DNA from: an uncultured Bacteroidales bacterium
Lineage (GTDB): Bacteria; Bacteroidota; Bacteroidia; Bacteroidales; UBA932
Assembly: GCA_946405645.1 (NCBI GenBank)
Contig: CAMJHW010000026.1
Span: forward strand, 1-13,272
DNA length: 13,272 bases
Direction of reading: 5' to 3'
Each line of letters starts with the position of its first letter. Position 1 is the stretch's first letter. Below, piece by piece: positions 1,670 to 12,479 of the stretch. Both the position numbers and the translations under genes were made by a program. The notes beneath the pieces were generated by a model. That model saw only the letters and a program-made list of their open reading frames with translations. It had not been told where the DNA came from and did no database searches.

Positions 1670-2725
1670 ATGAAGACTTTGCATACCATCATCGCCGGTG
1701 CGGCCGCGGCACTTTGCCTCGGCGGCGCCGCATATGCGCAGGATGCGCAGAGCGCGGCCGCTGCCGCAGCCGCGGAGCTCGCCAAGGCTCCCGAAGTGGA
1801 GAAGGCTGATGAGAAGCCCAATTTCTGGACCAGCGCAGCCGAGTTTACCTTCGGACTGAACCAGACCAGCCTCTGGGACTGGGCGGCCGGCGGCTACAAC
1901 AACCTCAGCCTCAATTCCGGCCTTGACGCCAACGCCAAGTACGAGAAGGACCTCACGACCTGGGGCAACCGCCTCCAGCTCCAGTACGGCACCCTCTCTT
2001 CGGCCGACAAGAAAGGCCTGATCCAGAAAACTACCGACCGTATCTACGCAGAAAGCAAATGGGGATACAAGACCCGCAAGGACTCCAAGTGGAGCTATAC
2101 CGCGGCCTTCGACTTCCGTTCCCAGTTCAGCGACGGATACAGCGACTACAAGCAGGGAACCGACGGCAAGTGGACCGGTACCCACAAGTCCGGATTCCTC
2201 GCTCCGGCCTACACCAATCTCGGTCTCGGTATGGACTGGACTCCGAACAAGTGGCTGAGCATCAACATCGCTCCCTTGACAGGCGGTTTCACCATCGTCC
2301 GTGCCGAGGACCTGCGCAAGACCTACGGAATGCAACTGCGCGACCCTTCGGCTTCGGCCGCCTCTCCTGCCGGCCCCGACTATCGCAGCGCCAAGTTCCA
2401 GTTCGGCGCCCAGGTCAAGGCCGATGCCAAGTTCGTCATCAACGAAGTGTTCAACTACGGCACCCAGTTGGTCCTGTTCACCGACTATCTCGACAATCCT
2501 TTCAAGGAATACCGCGTCAACTGGGACAACAAGATCACCTGGACCGTCGGCAAGTATTTCAAGATCGGACTCGACACCTGGCTCATCTACGACCCCAACG
2601 TCGTCATCAAGAACGAAAAGGACATCGCCCAGTACCCGGACGGACGCAACCGCGTCCAGTTCAAGGAGTTCACTTCCTTCAATTTCGCATACACCCTCAA
2701 GCCCAGGAGACTGCGGGACAAGTAA
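1670..2725 (+). CDS. DUF3078 family exported protein
   Basis: A 351-residue protein of the Bacteroidota DUF3078 family, whose function is unknown. The ATG at 1670 begins a clear signal peptide: MKT, a hydrophobic Ala/Leu/Gly stretch, then AAYAQ with likely cleavage after YA near residue 23. The reading frame is open further upstream inside proS, but that part is a shadow. A short Ala-rich and acidic linker (about 25-45) precedes the body. The body opens with NFWTSAAEFTFGLNQTSLWDW and AAGGYNNLSLNSG, and is rich in alternating aromatic and polar residues (YGTQLVLFTDYLDNP, NFAYTLKPRR), as in beta-barrel or outer-membrane-associated proteins. Its gaps are 11 bp to proS and 6 bp to tilS, so co-transcription is likely, although an envelope protein has no obvious link to tRNA enzymes. 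Family assignment is from recognition; outer-membrane location is inferred. Confidence 0.85.
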   Translation: MKTLHTIIAGAAAALCLGGAAYAQDAQSAAAAAAAELAKAPEVEKADEKPNFWTSAAEFTFGLNQTSLWDWAAGGYNNLSLNSGLDANAKYEKDLTTWGNRLQLQYGTLSSADKKGLIQKTTDRIYAESKWGYKTRKDSKWSYTAAFDFRSQFSDGYSDYKQGTDGKWTGTHKSGFLAPAYTNLGLGMDWTPNKWLSINIAPLTGGFTIVRAEDLRKTYGMQLRDPSASAASPAGPDYRSAKFQFGAQVKADAKFVINEVFNYGTQLVLFTDYLDNPFKEYRVNWDNKITWTVGKYFKIGLDTWLIYDPNVVIKNEKDIAQYPDGRNRVQFKEFTSFNFAYTLKPRRLRDK

Positions 2726-2731
2726 TCCGTC

Positions 2732-4165
2732 ATGAAGGTCCTGCTGGCTGTGAGCGGAGGCATCGACTCCATGTGCATGGCTGACATGTATGGCCGTGCC
2801 GGAGGAGATTATGCCGTAGCGCATTGCAACTTCCATCTCAGGGGCAGCGATAGCGACGCGGATGCGGAGTTTGTGGAGAAATGGGCGGAAACGCACGGTG
2901 TGCCGTTCTTCCGCGCAGATTTCGACACTTCAGGCTACGCTTCGGAACATGGCATCAGCATAGAAATGGCTGCGCGCGAACTGCGATATGCGTGGTTCGC
3001 GCGCATTGCCGTCCAATACGGCTTCGACGCCGTCGCCGTGGCCCACAATGCCAACGACAACGCCGAAACCCTCATCCTCAATCTCCTGCGCGGCACAGGC
3101 CTCCGCGGCCTCCGCGGCATGGCCTCAGATTCCTCCCTTCCGAGGGAACATGGCCCTGGAAATTGTCTTGCTCCGCAGGAGCCCCCCCATTGTAAACAAT
3201 GGGTCCCCCCCTCTTATGTTGCCGAGGGTGGCACAAATTTCCAGGGCCATGTTCCCTCGGGAATGGTAAGGCTGATAAGGCCGATGCTGGGGATGACGAG
3301 GGCGGAGATAGAGGAATATGCGAAAGCGAACGGAGTAGAGCACCGTGAAGACAGGACCAATGCGGAGAATGATGCGCACCGCAACCGTTTACGCAACAAT
3401 GTATTCCCGGAGTTCGCAAGGATCAATCCCTCCTTCGTGAAGACACTGAACTCCGACATGAGGCATTTCGCGCAGGCGGATGACATCGCTGAAGAGTATT
3501 TCCGAGAAGCACGGGCGAAGATCCTCTCCGAGGACGGGACGATCCGTGTAGACAAGCTTCTGGGTTTCAAGCATTGGAAGTACGTATTCTTCCGTCTGGC
3601 CGAACCATGCGGCTTCAGCGGGAAGACCTTGGATTCGATACTCGCGCTGATTGAAGAGCGCGCGCAGGGCCGCGGCACCTTCGCAGGAAAACGCTTCCAC
3701 TCCTCCACCCACGTCCTGGAGACTTCGCACGATGCGATATCATTCAGAGGGCGTGTTTCCGAAGATGACGGTCCCGACGAAGTGACCGTCACAGGACCGG
3801 GCGACTACCGATTCAAAGGCAGGACCGTCCGGATCGAAACAGTGGTACCCGGGTCGCTGAAGCAGGCGGAGGGCCTGCTCATCTGCGACGCTTCCGCACT
3901 CCTCTTCCCTTTCATCCTCCGCGGCTGGCAGTCCGGAGACTGGATGCGTCCCTTCGGAATGGGAGGCAGGGCCAAGAAACTCAGCGACATCTTTACCGAC
4001 AGGAAAATGTCCCTTTCGGACAAGGAAAGCGCCATCGTCGTATATAGTCCGGCCCTAGACGACGGCGGAGACGGCCGGGTAGCGGCCGTGGCCGGGCTCA
4101 GAATGGACGAAGCCCTCCGCGTGGCGAAGGGCTCCGTAAAAGTCTTGAGGATCTCAGTCCTCTAA
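2732..4165 (+). CDS. tilS: tRNA(Ile)-lysidine synthase with an in-frame palindromic insertion
   Basis: TilS attaches lysine to cytidine 34 of the CAU-anticodon tRNA(Ile), changing it to read AUA. The protein has 477 residues. The N-type ATP PP-loop SGGIDS is at 8-13, followed by HCNFHLRG, ARELRYAWF and AHNANDNAETLILNLLRGTG, all typical of the catalytic domain. The C-terminal TilS domain is seen around GDWMRPFG (from about 402) and KKLSDIFTDRKM. Residues about 137-177 (PREHGPGN to FQGHVPSG) have no counterpart in TilS proteins I know, where GM is followed after only a few residues by the LIRP motif. They are encoded by the palindrome at 3140-3260. Without them the protein would be about 436 residues, an ordinary size. 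Frame, PP-loop and C-terminal domain are all preserved, and the gene should be essential, so the product is probably functional. The ATG is 6 bp after the DUF3078 stop. The TAA directly abuts the sppA stop on the other strand. Confidence 0.95.
   Translation: MKVLLAVSGGIDSMCMADMYGRAGGDYAVAHCNFHLRGSDSDADAEFVEKWAETHGVPFFRADFDTSGYASEHGISIEMAARELRYAWFARIAVQYGFDAVAVAHNANDNAETLILNLLRGTGLRGLRGMASDSSLPREHGPGNCLAPQEPPHCKQWVPPSYVAEGGTNFQGHVPSGMVRLIRPMLGMTRAEIEEYAKANGVEHREDRTNAENDAHRNRLRNNVFPEFARINPSFVKTLNSDMRHFAQADDIAEEYFREARAKILSEDGTIRVDKLLGFKHWKYVFFRLAEPCGFSGKTLDSILALIEERAQGRGTFAGKRFHSSTHVLETSHDAISFRGRVSEDDGPDEVTVTGPGDYRFKGRTVRIETVVPGSLKQAEGLLICDASALLFPFILRGWQSGDWMRPFGMGGRAKKLSDIFTDRKMSLSDKESAIVVYSPALDDGGDGRVAAVAGLRMDEALRVAKGSVKVLRISVL
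3140..3260. repeat. Palindromic element, 25-bp perfect inverted arms, inside tilS
   Basis: Bases 3140-3164 are the exact reverse complement of 3236-3260 (25 of 25). In RNA the stem could gain two more pairs (3139-3261 as U-G and 3138-3262 as U-A). The 71-base interior has three smaller hairpins: 3170-3174 with 3178-3182 (GCTCC/GGAGC, loop GCA), 3186-3193 with 3196-3203 (CCCATTGT/ACAATGGG, loop AA), and 3220-3223 with 3230-3233 (TGCC/GGCA). Two C7 tracts (3182-3188 and 3205-3211) flank the central hairpin. The fold would be a four-way, cloverleaf-like shape. No transposase, clear target duplication or second copy is seen in the window. It is best described as a non-autonomous palindromic (REP/MITE-like) insertion that kept the host frame. 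The family is not recognised. Confidence 0.9.
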
Positions 4166-5965
4166 TTACCTGATATCGATAACGTAAGGGATGCGGGCGA
4201 ACATGACGTCCGCAGGATTATTCTTCACACGCTCATACCAGTCGAGAAGCATTTCCGCAGCATCTCCGAAAGGAGTGCCTGAGAAGATATTCTCAGGGGG
4301 AACACCCTGGCCGAACATCTCCATCATCCTCTCCATCTCGGACAGCGGCTTGGGATATTCTACCACGTTCCAGGCCGTCAGGTCGGCGTCACCGCCGGCG
4401 GAGGCCGCCCACTTCACTGCATCCTCCAGAGTGCCTATCTCGTCCACGAGACCGATCTTGATGGCATCGGAACCGGCCCACACACGACCCTGGGCAATCG
4501 AATCCACGAAGTCGGGCTCAAGGCCGCGTCCCTCGGAAACGGTGTTGACGAAACGAGTGTAGATGTTCTCGACGGAAGCCTGCATATAATCGAGCTCCTC
4601 CTGGTCGAGGGGACGCATCAGGGAATACATGTCGGCATGCTTGTTGGAGCCCACGGTTACGATGTTGACGTGGGCGAGGTCCATGACGGTCTTGCTGAGA
4701 TCGGGAATCATGCTGAAGACGCCGATGGATCCGGTGAGGGTGGTAGCGTCGGAGTAGATCTTGTCACAGTTGTTGGAAATCCAATAACCTCCGGATGCCG
4801 CATAGTTACCATAGGAAGCGACCACGGGCTTCTCTTTCATGAGCAACTCGATGCCCGCCTTGATCTTCTCGGAGGCGAGCACGCTGCCGCCGGGAGAGTT
4901 CACGCGGAAGACGACGGCCTTGATGGTGGAGTCTGCACGGACCTTGGAGATGACGCGGGCGAAATAGTCTCCGGCGACATTCTGCTTGCCTTCGCCGTCG
5001 ATGATCTCGCCGTCAGCATAGAGGATGGCGATCTTCTGTTTCACCTTGGTATTGGGAACGACCTTGGCCGAGATGTAATCGGCAAGGGTGAAGGACTTGA
5101 GTTTCTTGAACGATTCGACGACTGCAAGGTCCGCGAGCTTGTTCTCAAGGCCCTCGCGGTCGAGCAGTTCATCCACGAAACCTTCACGGAGGTAGTCTTC
5201 GGGAAGGTTGAGCTTAAGCTCGTCGATAGCTGCATTGACAGCCTCGACCGACATCCTGCGGCTCTCGGCGATCTCAGAAGCATAGCTGCCCCAGATCGCG
5301 TCGATCATTGCGCGGTTCTGCTCGAGGTTCTCGGGGCTGGGGCTGTTCTTGATATATCCCTCGCCGGCGGACTTGTACTTGCCATGACGTATGAGCTGTA
5401 CGTTGACGCCGAGCTTGTCGAGCAGGTCTTTGTAGAAGGTAAGCCTGCCGCCGATGCCCGTCAGCGAAGAGTTGGCGCCCTGATAGGATGTCATATAGAT
5501 CTTGTCGGAGACGGAAGCAAGATAGTAAGATGCTGTGGAAGGGCCCTCGATATAGGAGATGACAGGCTTTCCGCTCATGCGGAAGTTGGCCAGCGACTTG
5601 CGGAGCTCCTGAAGCTGCGCCATACCGCCGGAGGCGCCGTCGGCCTTGATGTAGATATACTTGACGGCGGGGTCCTCGGCGGCTTTGTTGATGGCCTGGA
5701 CGGCCTTCCAGAGGCCGATGTTCTGAACCATTGAACCGCCGCCGGACACGAGCGACATCACGTCGGGTGAAGCGGGAGTGGACTGCTCGGAGATAACGAT
5801 CTTGGACATATCCATGACCATGACTCCGGACTTGGGCAGCGCGGTGGAAGCGCTGCCGGCAGCAGCGAGCGACGACACGAAGCCCATGCCAAGGATCAAT
5901 GCGATGATTCCCGCAATAAAGAGGCCGCATACTACGGCGAGGACCATTTTGAAGAATTCTTTCAT
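4166..5965 (-). CDS. sppA: Signal peptide peptidase SppA, 67K type
   Basis: SppA is a membrane-anchored serine protease that degrades leftover signal peptides. The 599-residue length fits the long form with two ClpP-like halves. An N-terminal transmembrane anchor spans about residues 7-33, placing the rest on the periplasmic side. The catalytic dyad is visible: Lys198 in GKYKSAGE in the first half and Ser391 in NYAASGGYWIS in the second, matching the positions known for E. coli SppA. VNSPGGSV (355-362) and TLTGSIGVF (409-417) are further family motifs. Start MKEFF at 5965 lies about 16 bases downstream of the expected start site of the minus-strand promoter. The gene is divergent from hisS and convergent with tilS, its TAA lying immediately next to the tilS TAA with no base between. 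It appears intact and probably has its own promoter. Confidence 0.96.
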   Translation of the reverse strand: MKEFFKMVLAVVCGLFIAGIIALILGMGFVSSLAAAGSASTALPKSGVMVMDMSKIVISEQSTPASPDVMSLVSGGGSMVQNIGLWKAVQAINKAAEDPAVKYIYIKADGASGGMAQLQELRKSLANFRMSGKPVISYIEGPSTASYYLASVSDKIYMTSYQGANSSLTGIGGRLTFYKDLLDKLGVNVQLIRHGKYKSAGEGYIKNSPSPENLEQNRAMIDAIWGSYASEIAESRRMSVEAVNAAIDELKLNLPEDYLREGFVDELLDREGLENKLADLAVVESFKKLKSFTLADYISAKVVPNTKVKQKIAILYADGEIIDGEGKQNVAGDYFARVISKVRADSTIKAVVFRVNSPGGSVLASEKIKAGIELLMKEKPVVASYGNYAASGGYWISNNCDKIYSDATTLTGSIGVFSMIPDLSKTVMDLAHVNIVTVGSNKHADMYSLMRPLDQEELDYMQASVENIYTRFVNTVSEGRGLEPDFVDSIAQGRVWAGSDAIKIGLVDEIGTLEDAVKWAASAGGDADLTAWNVVEYPKPLSEMERMMEMFGQGVPPENIFSGTPFGDAAEMLLDWYERVKNNPADVMFARIPYVIDIR

Positions 5966-9878: not shown

Positions 9879-12479
9879 CTATTTCATCTGCCACCAGTCC
9901 CAGGTGAAGCCGTCGCCCTTGAACACAAAGTACAAGTCATGGACGCCGGATACGCCTTTCAATGAACAGCTGTTCGTCCTGTAGCCGTCACCAGGCTTGA
10001 TGTTCATGGTGCCGGCAAGCGGGCCGTCTTCGGCATCGAGCCTTATCTCGACGACAGCAGGCTTGACGGCGCACACATTCATCTGGAGATTCCTGGCGCC
10101 TCTCTTGAAGTCCACTCCCGACACTTTCAGGTATTCGCCTTCATCGATGTCCGTAACGACTATCACGTTGCCGCCCTTCTGGGTCTTGAGGCCATATCCC
10201 CATGACATCGTCTCTGCCTCCACCTTACGGAACGGGTTGAAGGGCTGGATCTGCTCCAGGACGTTGTCCTGCCAGTAAGGGACTTTCTGGATGCTGCCGT
10301 CAGGATTGTAATGCATCTCGGCAGCCGATACGCTGCGCCTTTCGTGATGACGGAACGTATCAATGTGCATTATCTCGTAATTCAGGCCGAAAACATAAGA
10401 TCTGCCCTTGTAGTCGATGATGCCGGGATGGTTGCCCCTGGTGCGCCATGTACGGTCCATGATGTGTCCCATTGATTTCCAGGGACCGGTGGGGCTGTCG
10501 CTCATAGCGTAACCTATTCCCTCGGGGCAGCAGGTGGAAGCGAAAGCCAGATAATACTTGCCGTTACGCTTGTAGAACCATGGCCCCTCCTGATAGTAAT
10601 CAATCTTGTAATCGAGTTTGTGGATCTCGCTGGCCAGGGAAATCATATCGTCGCCGAGCTCCGCCCAATAGACGTTGGGGTTGCCCCAGTACATATAGGC
10701 CTGTCCGTCGTCATCGACCCACACAGTAGGGTCGATGTCCTCCCAATGCTCCCTCTGCCATACAAGCGGCTTTCCTATAGGATCCACGAACGGGCCGTAA
10801 GGGGTATCTGCGACCAGCACTCCTATCCCGTGCCCATGGATGGGACAGTACATATAGAACTTGCCGTTCCTCTCCACTACCTGAAGGGCCCAAGCCCCGT
10901 TGTCGCCGTCATACCATTTGAAATCCTTGAGAGATGCCACGGCACCGTGGTCCTGCCAGTTCACCATATCATCCGAGGTGTAGAGCAGCCAGTCCTTCAT
11001 CACGAATCCGTTGGCGTAGTCCTCGTCGTGGGTGGTATAGAGGTAAACCTTGCCGTCATAGACCATAGGGGCGGGGTCCGCCGTGTATTTGGTCTGGATG
11101 ATCGGCATATTGACATGCGCGTTGAACTTCCACCAGTCAAGGTCGAAGAGCTCCTCGTCACCACCGTGGAAAAGCAGATAGACATCGTGCTTCCCGGTCA
11201 CTCCGGGACGTACCGGAGCGGTAATCATCATGTTGTCGTTGTTGACGGGCACGGTGGCTACCGGCCTCGCATCTATCATCTCGTCGATGAAGAAATCTAT
11301 GCTGCCGGGATTCTTGAAATTGAGCATCTCGATGACAACCATCGTGGCCTCCTCGTCGCCGAAGTCCACTTCGCGGACCTTGATCCAGTCTCCGTTGTGG
11401 ATGGAGGTTACATAATGACGCGTGCCGGGCAGGCGGTCAACCTTGACGCCATAGCTCTCGGCCATTGTCTCCGCCTCGACGGTCACATACGGATTGATAG
11501 TTCCTATGGGGTCCGGACCTTCCTTCGTCGCGGGGATGAAAGGGATGGTTCCGTCAGGGTTGAACTTGAACTCTTCCACTGCAGCGCTGCGGTGATAGCT
11601 GCTCCCGTTGGGCAACGAGGCAGTATGATAGAACATATAGTCGTGCCCCTTGTAATTGACGTATCCTCCGTGGATGGTAATGCTGTTGGGGATACGGTCC
11701 ATTATCTGTCCGCCGTATTTCCAGGGACCGTTGATCGTCGGAGCGGTGGAATAGGCCATGAACTCCGGGATGCCTCCTGCCGGATATATCGCATAATAGG
11801 TGCCGTCGCGTTTGCAGACCCACGGGCCTTCTTCGTAGGAAGTCATGTCGATCACTCTTCCCAACGACCATTTTGTCCTAGGGACAAAAGGGCCGAAAGC
11901 CTCCGGATCGGGATATCCGGGAACTTCCTTGTATCCGTCCTTGAACGAAATCATATCATCGTTCAACTGGCCGTAGAAGAAACCCTGGAGACCCCAGAAC
12001 AGCCATGCCGAACCGTCGTCATCTATCCAGACCGTGGGGTCTATGAAACCGTTGCCGTAGCAGAGGGGGCCGCCGATGGCGTCCTCCCACGGGCCCTGAG
12101 GGTCGTCAGCGACGGCTACGGCCAGGCATTCGCCGTAGCCGCGCGCCATACAGCAGCAGTACCAATACCACTTGCCATTCCTCTCGACAGCCTGGGAGGC
12201 CCAGGCGCGGTTCCCCTGAAGGGCCCAGCTGAAGGTGGCGGTCGACATCGGAGTGCCGAGATAAGTCCAGTTGACCATATCCTCGGTGCTGAACAGCACC
12301 CAGTCCTTCATCTTGTAGTTCGTTGCGTCGTCTTCATCGTGGTCGACGAACATGTAGAGCTTGCCGTCATGCACATAAGGGGCGGGATCCGGGGTGTACA
12401 TCACGGAGGTGATGGGGTTTTGGGCAAAGGCGGCCATTCCGGCAACTGCAAGCCCAAGAAGGGTCAGAAATCGTTTCAT
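9879..12479 (-). CDS. Double-headed GH43-CBM6-GH43-CBM6 enzyme
   Basis: An 866-residue secreted enzyme made of two copies of a GH43-CBM6 unit. Residues 1-20 are a signal peptide (AFA|Q). GH43 domain 1 covers about 24-320, CBM6-like module 1 about 333-453 (VEAETMAESYG to DLDWWKFN), GH43 domain 2 about 461-740, and CBM6-like module 2 about 752-866 (VEAETMSWGYG to WDWWQMK). GH43 is a five-bladed propeller whose three acidic catalytic residues appear in both copies: Asp31, Asp147 and Glu217 in the first, and Asp468, Asp583 and Glu631 in the second (motifs DPAP, IDPTVW, EGPW). Both heads should be active. The sequence resembles XynD-type arabinoxylan arabinofuranohydrolases, but GH43 also holds xylosidases and galactosidases, so the substrate is inferred. 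Domain 1 carries about 28 extra residues before its acid Glu. The ATG lies 2 bases after the stop of the SGNH gene, so translation is probably coupled. Confidence 0.92.
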   Translation of the reverse strand: MKRFLTLLGLAVAGMAAFAQNPITSVMYTPDPAPYVHDGKLYMFVDHDEDDATNYKMKDWVLFSTEDMVNWTYLGTPMSTATFSWALQGNRAWASQAVERNGKWYWYCCCMARGYGECLAVAVADDPQGPWEDAIGGPLCYGNGFIDPTVWIDDDGSAWLFWGLQGFFYGQLNDDMISFKDGYKEVPGYPDPEAFGPFVPRTKWSLGRVIDMTSYEEGPWVCKRDGTYYAIYPAGGIPEFMAYSTAPTINGPWKYGGQIMDRIPNSITIHGGYVNYKGHDYMFYHTASLPNGSSYHRSAAVEEFKFNPDGTIPFIPATKEGPDPIGTINPYVTVEAETMAESYGVKVDRLPGTRHYVTSIHNGDWIKVREVDFGDEEATMVVIEMLNFKNPGSIDFFIDEMIDARPVATVPVNNDNMMITAPVRPGVTGKHDVYLLFHGGDEELFDLDWWKFNAHVNMPIIQTKYTADPAPMVYDGKVYLYTTHDEDYANGFVMKDWLLYTSDDMVNWQDHGAVASLKDFKWYDGDNGAWALQVVERNGKFYMYCPIHGHGIGVLVADTPYGPFVDPIGKPLVWQREHWEDIDPTVWVDDDGQAYMYWGNPNVYWAELGDDMISLASEIHKLDYKIDYYQEGPWFYKRNGKYYLAFASTCCPEGIGYAMSDSPTGPWKSMGHIMDRTWRTRGNHPGIIDYKGRSYVFGLNYEIMHIDTFRHHERRSVSAAEMHYNPDGSIQKVPYWQDNVLEQIQPFNPFRKVEAETMSWGYGLKTQKGGNVIVVTDIDEGEYLKVSGVDFKRGARNLQMNVCAVKPAVVEIRLDAEDGPLAGTMNIKPGDGYRTNSCSLKGVSGVHDLYFVFKGDGFTWDWWQMK

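Follow-up and report, generated by a model that had tools for sequence, protein, structure and literature searches.

The window analyzed here (the whole stretch of Bacteroidales DNA, 13,272 nucleotides) carries a tilS gene with a long palindrome inside its reading frame. The question raised by this locus is what kind of DNA the palindrome is, and how it came to be read as part of a protein.

The palindromic element in tilS

The host gene and the parts of the element were located as follows.

2732..4165, + strand: tilS, tRNA(Ile)-lysidine synthase, the element's host gene (ORF of 477 aa; ATP_bind_3, TIGR02432/TIGR02433)
3140..3260, + strand: whole palindromic element, arms and core, read in frame as residues 137-177, with its C-rich strand as sense strand of tilS
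3140..3164, + strand: left arm, 25 nt, locus-specific (inverted-repeat search)
3165..3182, + strand: core hairpin 1, GCTCC-GCA-GGAGC at 3170-3182 (fold; alignment A1)
3186..3203, + strand: core hairpin 2, CCCATTGT-AA-ACAATGGG (fold; alignment A1)
3209..3228, + strand: core hairpin 3, CCCTC-TTATGTTGCC-GAGGG (stem invariant in 67 aligned copies)
3220..3233, + strand: pseudoknot, loop TGCC at 3220-3223 with GGCA at 3230-3233 (covariation in 18 distinct sequences, two subfamilies)
3236..3260, + strand: right arm, 25 nt, perfect complement of the left arm (inverted-repeat search)

The product of the tilS ORF matched Pfam ATP_bind_3 at 1.5e-43; in NCBIfam it matched TIGR02433 and, over two stretches, TIGR02432 (1.8e-48). 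Solved relatives were 1wy5, 3a2k and 1ni5; for 1wy5 and 3a2k the matched stretches stop and then restart, flanking the insert loop of the window's TilS. The element (121 nt) lies wholly within the ORF, in frame and with no stop codon, and residues 137-177 correspond to DNA 3140-3262. A sequence-only reading of this DNA had described perfect 25-bp arms around 71 nt, in frame in tilS, and was borne out by the inverted-repeat search and the ORF check: the arms are 100% complementary with 71 nt between them, and were the only 100% pair among the 25 inverted pairs listed (33 were found in the window). The element segment folded at -78.7 kcal/mol, against -45.8 ± 4.1 kcal/mol for 200 shuffles (z -8.0), 0/200 of which were as stable.

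In an AlphaFold2 model of TilS (73 rows, mean pLDDT 83.2), residues 139-176 were the sole segment of three or more residues with pLDDT below 50. The model is consistent with the ∼36-41 extra residues most likely forming a tolerated disordered loop, and the insert is probably kept in the TilS protein with near-neutral effect. Elsewhere in the window, positions 9879-12479 of the minus strand encode an 866-aa protein of two homologous halves, with DNA repeats at 10956/12267 and 10684/11992, adjoined by other secreted-looking ORFs; this region may be a carbohydrate-use cluster.

A dispersed family with a conserved core

The names CPE (the element family), type 2 and HLE were coined in this analysis. 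Copies were collected with a 21-base hairpin-3 pattern; since 18 of the 20 nt of hairpin 3 lie inside the pattern, the invariance of the hairpin-3 stem in 67 copies is partly built in. The sequence-only reading had named many copies elsewhere with conserved arms as what would speak for a mobile element. The copies exist, at no fewer than 120 loci in genome contigs and in 73/101 genomes of the genus-level group of genome G001 (covariance model, E ≤ 1e-6, 1-31 matches per positive genome), but it is the core that is conserved, the arms being locus-specific. All 80 loci listed of the at least 120 were in Bacteroidales, Bacteroidia or Prevotellaceae records, a host lineage that is not Rickettsiales. 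The genus of G001 includes G003, the genome of locus L041, 'Candidatus Cryptobacteroides caccocaballi'. Order-wide, 4/295 genomes matched at E ≤ 1e-8 (G001 itself and three at only 44-53 bits); this search was stricter in E-value than the genus search, and 4/295 and 73/101 are not on one scale. Four genomes contained 13-43 covariance-model matches each at E ≤ 1e-3. The window's element scored 83 bits, the window being among the 67 sequences from which the model was built. Across positions 2700-4300 of the window nothing matched an Rfam 15 covariance model at E ≤ 1, phages and plasmids gave only chance matches of 19-25 nt to the element, and viral contigs gave 0 exact matches to the hairpin-3 pattern.

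The conserved core is 65-75 nt long and consists of three hairpins with CCCCTCCC-type linkers, enclosed by arms that vary by locus. Clear arms were present in 123/145 distinct copies (22 were dropped for an arm score under 12), and these armed copies were 94-151 bp long, ∼120 bp being typical. The arms were mostly 20-32 bp (median 26 bp), complementary within a copy (3107/3220 pairs Watson-Crick) and divergent between copies, with a mean pairwise identity of 0.38 over the first 20 positions (n = 104 arms) and a loose consensus only, near the core. Alignment A1 contained 67 copies, 28 of the 95 extracted being left out. In these 67 the arm helix had 88.9% of cells paired, with changes on both sides at 12/12 pairs, and the covariation score of the whole structure was 0.446 against at most 0.126 when slid.

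The pseudoknot is formed by the 3' part of the hairpin-3 loop and the four bases past the stem, with one spacer base between. For its test 37 copies were chosen, of which L232 and L234 did not fit the fixed spacing, and repeats were merged to 18 distinct sequences. Standard pairs made up 97.2% of cells and 3/4 pairs changed on both sides, through the variants TGCC/GGCA, GGCC/GGCC, AGCC/GGCT, TTGC/GCAA and GGTC/GACC; 2/18 sequences lack one or two of the four Watson-Crick pairs.

A second subfamily, type 2, has the same architecture with a different hairpin 3 (e.g. CCCGTTCACGAGGCCACGGGCGGCC) and was seen at L235-L236, L238-L245, L262:1500-1646, L106:6006-6097 and L112:4370-4473. Eleven weak model matches were fetched (L235-L245), of which 10 were type 2 and L237 was a half element. 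L040, L080 and L094 are also half elements, with hairpin 3 and the right arm only. The copy at L100:3698-3789 is chimeric: its arms do not match each other and resemble those of L005 and L017, which would fit recombination of two elements inside the core. At L033 and L098 several overlapping partial repeats adjoin the element copy and look like local tandem amplification.

Genomic sites

By greedy ORF picking, 64/123 armed copies lay inside a long ORF (36 antisense, 28 sense). Since 94% of random points count as coding by this picking, the element occupies coding sites less often than chance would give, yet commonly. Hosts were identified by HMM for 20 ORFs and TilS only (with Pfam also for ten), and 19/20 submitted ORFs matched an NCBIfam family at E ≤ 1e-5, several below the curated cut-off; the ORF at L206 had no match to an NCBIfam HMM. 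The hosts were MtaB, TruB, UvrA, AtpG, AroK, RsmE, IspE, DnaX, MurU, RibF, RecR, HemW, FumA, a PcrA/UvrD-like protein, TsaB, RlmB, an M16 peptidase, a family-2 glycosyltransferase and TIGR02757. In-frame copies in ∼20 kinds of host gene agree with the earlier proposal that the family tolerates coding sites. Within genes the core was read in frames used by 23, 14, 13, 13 and 1 copies.

Of the 59 armed copies outside ORFs, 48 had the 3' end of a gene within 60 nt. As a rough control, consisting of points and not of 120-bp stretches, 468/1550 random intergenic points lay near a gene 3' end. Between neighbours of the same direction the C-rich strand was the sense strand in 16/19 cases, orthologous copies being counted separately. 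Several sites were common to different species, and part of the distribution is therefore inheritance. Empty DNA sites, lacking the core and both arms, were found at L117 (compared with L120) and L005 (compared with L004, L087 and L092). No clean target-site duplication was seen at the DNA level in empty/filled pairs, which were only 74-84% alike. The idea that arms are inverted copies of the target was rejected as a general rule, the empty sites L117 and L005 having neither arm.

TilS homologues with and without the insert

TilS sequences comprised the best 120 of 7824 homologues (8000 scored candidates, E 0.001) and the window. Of these 121 rows, the 115 of at least 400 aa were used and 6 shorter ones were dropped. 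The insert was missing in 64, in sense orientation in 29, in antisense orientation in 17 and something else in 5, the latter rows with other inserts being left unlabelled. The sequence-only reading had held that ∼41 added residues (137-177) are absent from homologues, and this is the case for 64/110 classified rows. On a tree of the 110 classified rows, calculated with the insert columns left out, 26 changes between insert and none were counted; since each of 100 label shuffles gave at least 29, the trait follows the TilS tree weakly.

Empty and filled alleles occur in near-identical proteins. Outside the insert, empty P0071 was 96.6% identical to filled P0043, empty P0067 97.5% identical to filled P0028 and empty P0064 97.4% identical to filled P0039. 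The difference in length between filled and empty TilS was 39-41 residues for P0013/P0021, P0028/P0067, P0043/P0071 and P0039/P0064, 50 residues for P0045/P0049 and 36 for the window against P0021. P0013 (sense), P0016 (antisense) and P0021-P0027 (none) were 91.5-97.5% identical across classes outside the site, and at least 94.5% except in pairs with P0026. Among the best 120, the nearest insert-free TilS proteins to that of the window (P0021-P0025) were 72-73% identical over the match. The window and P0002 were 98.1% identical outside the site, yet their inserts differ.

P0004-P0012 group with the insert-free P0021 clade, yet their insert and its near flanks are almost those of the window, a pattern in the protein sequences which suggests that the segment may have been transferred between species by homologous recombination. 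In P0071/P0043 the outer arm seems, as judged from the protein letters, to overlap a pre-existing 'SPLPG'. P0046, P0061 and P0040 have other short repeated inserts at the tilS site, e.g. 'CPQVPPENGTTCGK'-like units, and the loop therefore accepts unrelated repeats.

Evolution of arms and core

Arm changes were counted in 15 orthologous pairs, taking one pair per site with arm identity of 0.6 to below 1 and at most 20 positions. Both arms had changed with pairing kept in 61 cases, one arm only in 14, and 3 were other; the count favours paired cells because the arms were delimited by their own complementarity. These figures lend support to the active maintenance of the arms that had been suggested from the window, and joint change of both arms is also a mark of template-switch repeats.

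Of the 44 orthologous DNA pairs left after flank filtering, 15 had a core inverted relative to the flanks. In 4 of the 15 the arms were 79-90% alike (best L055/L105), which indicates inversion in place. In the other 11 the arms were under 70% alike, and to judge by the sequences these may be separate insertions at one site. At the protein level P0013 and P0016 have both arms in common and opposite cores, so that spacer inversion between unchanged arms, a second mark of template switching, is seen in this pair, beside the four DNA pairs with arms 79-90% alike.

Arm homogenisation and spacer inversion in coding DNA are published template-switch effects (PMC8604942, as far as the cited part goes), and perfect RNA stems are described as created and maintained in single template-switch events (PMC8794818, in the section used here). 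The inverted spacers given in that portion of the yeast study were 2-5 bp (PMC8604942), against ∼70 bp in CPE. Template switching is probably the cause of the arm and core changes.

Origin of the tilS segment

The tilS segment is probably a copy of the mobile non-coding CPE family, with arms rewritten by template switching. An agent would disperse a core of three hairpins and a pseudoknot, up to tens of copies per genome. Copies would survive where they are least harmful, either close behind stop codons or in frame in protein loops; in-frame copies are possible because about four of the six core frames are free of stops. Once a copy is in place, its inverted arms would undergo template switching at replication. 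One arm would be copied onto the other, so that both change together, stay complementary and drift between copies, and from time to time the core would be inverted between the arms. CPE is more likely to have moved by transposition than through recombination between genomes.

The sequence-only reading of the tilS palindrome is supported in large part. Conservation of the core rather than the arms, the invertible core and the pseudoknot go beyond it.

A further step can be proposed tentatively, namely that the mobile entity is a pseudoknotted RNA or ssDNA core without fixed ends, around which a private stem is built and rewritten at each site by template switching. If true, CPE would belong to a class of mobile elements that is defined by fold and not by terminal repeats, and would have remodelled many essential proteins in a single gut lineage.

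Alternatively, the element could be a functional structured RNA, such as an mRNA 3'-end or regulatory element, with the stem selected for pairing and the coding copies as side effects. The clustering of intergenic copies behind genes (48/59 against 468/1550 in the rough control), the covarying pseudoknot and the sense bias of the C-rich strand (16/19) would fit such a function, as would an asymmetry among arm mismatches, which on the C-rich strand were A.C in 35 and G.T in 11 cases (89 flank clusters). The A.C excess is wobble-compatible on the G-rich strand and is therefore a hint of an RNA role, superfluous to the neutral account. Sense (15:2), antisense (7:3) and intergenic (13:6) copies all show the asymmetry in one direction, however, so that it does not follow the host transcript; nor is it decisive, because template switching can itself explain asymmetric frequencies of stem pairs, according to the part of PMC8794818 used here. 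Roughly half of the copies are within reading frames, whichever way round, both core orientations are found at one site, presence is erratic between near-identical proteins and there was no Rfam match at E ≤ 1, all of which make the RNA function unlikely.

Slightly less probable again is a REP/BIME-type element with a RAYT (Y1 HUH) transposase from the HLE cluster as its mobiliser; this cluster was delimited by a best E below 1e-105, separated by a gap from 8e-74. Y1_Tnp was detected (E ≤ 0.001) in 19/19 element-bearing genomes against 9/17 without a model match. In a sample taken in listing order (60 of the 73 positive and 20 of the 28 negative genus genomes), HLE was present in 38/60 element-positive against 2/20 negative genomes (Fisher p 5e-5; copy number p 7e-8), but the genomes are related, and common descent may account for the association. 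Within 1 kb of 4/10 cluster-2 Y1 genes, and of 4/24 Y1 ORFs, lay an element or a degenerate relative, three of the four being weak matches (14.8-28.7 bits). At 30 further HLE loci, however, there was no element at E < 0.01, and other short palindromes were present at 17/26 readable HLE loci. The element also has no GTAG/CGTC tag and is 3-6 times as long as a REP. RAYT was set aside as mobiliser, co-occurring with the element and mostly not adjacent to it. L279-L308 are HLE-type Y1 genes, several HLE-type genes have internal stops, and the palindromes near them are often pairs that bear GGTCCA or GTCCC, with 54-60 nt between the arms.

A reverse transcriptase was likewise rejected as mobiliser, RVT_1 being found in just 3/10 element-bearing draft genomes. 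A larger autonomous form was sought at 13 loci whose copies are half, chimeric, cut or poorly armed; a search of each locus, allowing ≤ 3 mismatches in 18, gave no distant left arm. The search for a mobiliser among Y1_Tnp, reverse transcriptase and larger autonomous forms yielded none.

It is very improbable that the segment is skipped or removed by RNA processing, ribosome bypass or protein splicing to leave a mature TilS without the insert. A 25-bp mRNA stem with a structured core and the disorder of the insert in the AlphaFold2 model are what such removal might use, but in-gene copies (which were picked by lying inside an ORF) keep an open frame that would be needless, and no Rfam family matched. 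A TilS loop peculiar to the lineage, or an assembly artefact, with no link to mobile DNA in either case, is favoured by nothing except that the site is common to several TilS lineages, and can be dismissed: the same core is dispersed through ∼20 kinds of unrelated gene in many assemblies, empty and filled alleles exist at 96-98% identity, and an artefact, which the sequence-only reading had itself considered, is unlikely because protein clusters encoded on separate contigs (P0001, P0003-P0012) have an insert that is identical or closely similar.

Comparison with known systems

A mobile CPE family with template-switched arms was compared with described systems. Template-switch (quasipalindrome) repeats share arm homogenisation and spacer inversion with CPE (PMC8604942, PMC8794818, both for the portions cited), but they are local, whereas CPE is dispersed with ∼70 bp between the arms. 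Because dozens of loci have different stems around the same core, CPE offers a direct test of template switching keeping stems perfect.

In tested features CPE differs from both MITEs and REPs. Like CPE, MITEs are short and non-coding with inverted repeats, and in-frame fusions are possible in general (PMC10969869, in the part cited). The copies of CPE have no conserved terminal repeat in common (mean arm identity 0.38), however, and no target duplication was seen for it (empty sites 74-84% alike). In Bacteroidota, MITEs include MITECca01 of Cardinium and BrickBuilt of Porphyromonas gingivalis; in the text used from these two reports the Cardinium MITE derives from an IS, those of P. gingivalis are treated as intergenic and in-frame copies are not described (PMC9769881, PMC5771137). 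REP/BIME sequences are palindromic and lie mostly behind genes, with some within genes (PMC3733652, in the cited part), but they are 20-40 bp against ∼120 bp for CPE, which has no GTAG/CGTC tag in the A1 consensus and is mostly not beside a RAYT. In Nematomorpha mitochondria long perfect inverted repeats also lie inside coding genes, but there both arms encode conserved protein sequence, and the portion of that report used here mentions no shared mobile core (PMC6649704).

Protein-invading palindromes are best known from Rickettsiales as RPE (PMC10969869, PMC3767692, PMC3733652, each in the part cited), and the cited section of a MITE review calls a similar mechanism in other prokaryotes 'conceivable' (PMC10969869). 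RPE and the Wolbachia protein-coding palindromic repeats resemble CPE in a length of 100-150 bp, in many copies both intergenic and in frame, in unrelated housekeeping hosts and in occupying the same site in orthologues. The kinds of host also overlap: the excerpts used report RPE-1 in the tRNA pseudouridine synthase B gene (PMC3733652) and list excinuclease and DNA polymerase III in a table of an RPE paper (PMC3767692). CPE differs in phylum, in its pseudoknotted conserved core and non-conserved arms, in opposite cores between the same arms and in the use of four frames, RPE being taken by description. CPE appears to work like RPE; it was not filed as RPE because its host lineage is Bacteroidales and the likeness rests on description rather than on sequence. 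Among the top-ranked papers listed by literature searches in which subscription journals were thinly covered, none described palindromic elements lying in frame in Cryptobacteroides or elsewhere in Bacteroidota, in agreement with the sequence-only reading. CPE brings protein-invading palindromes to Bacteroidota, in ATP synthase gamma, DNA polymerase III gamma/tau, TilS and TruB, and its presence or absence in near-identical proteins is a natural experiment on the origin of new protein segments.
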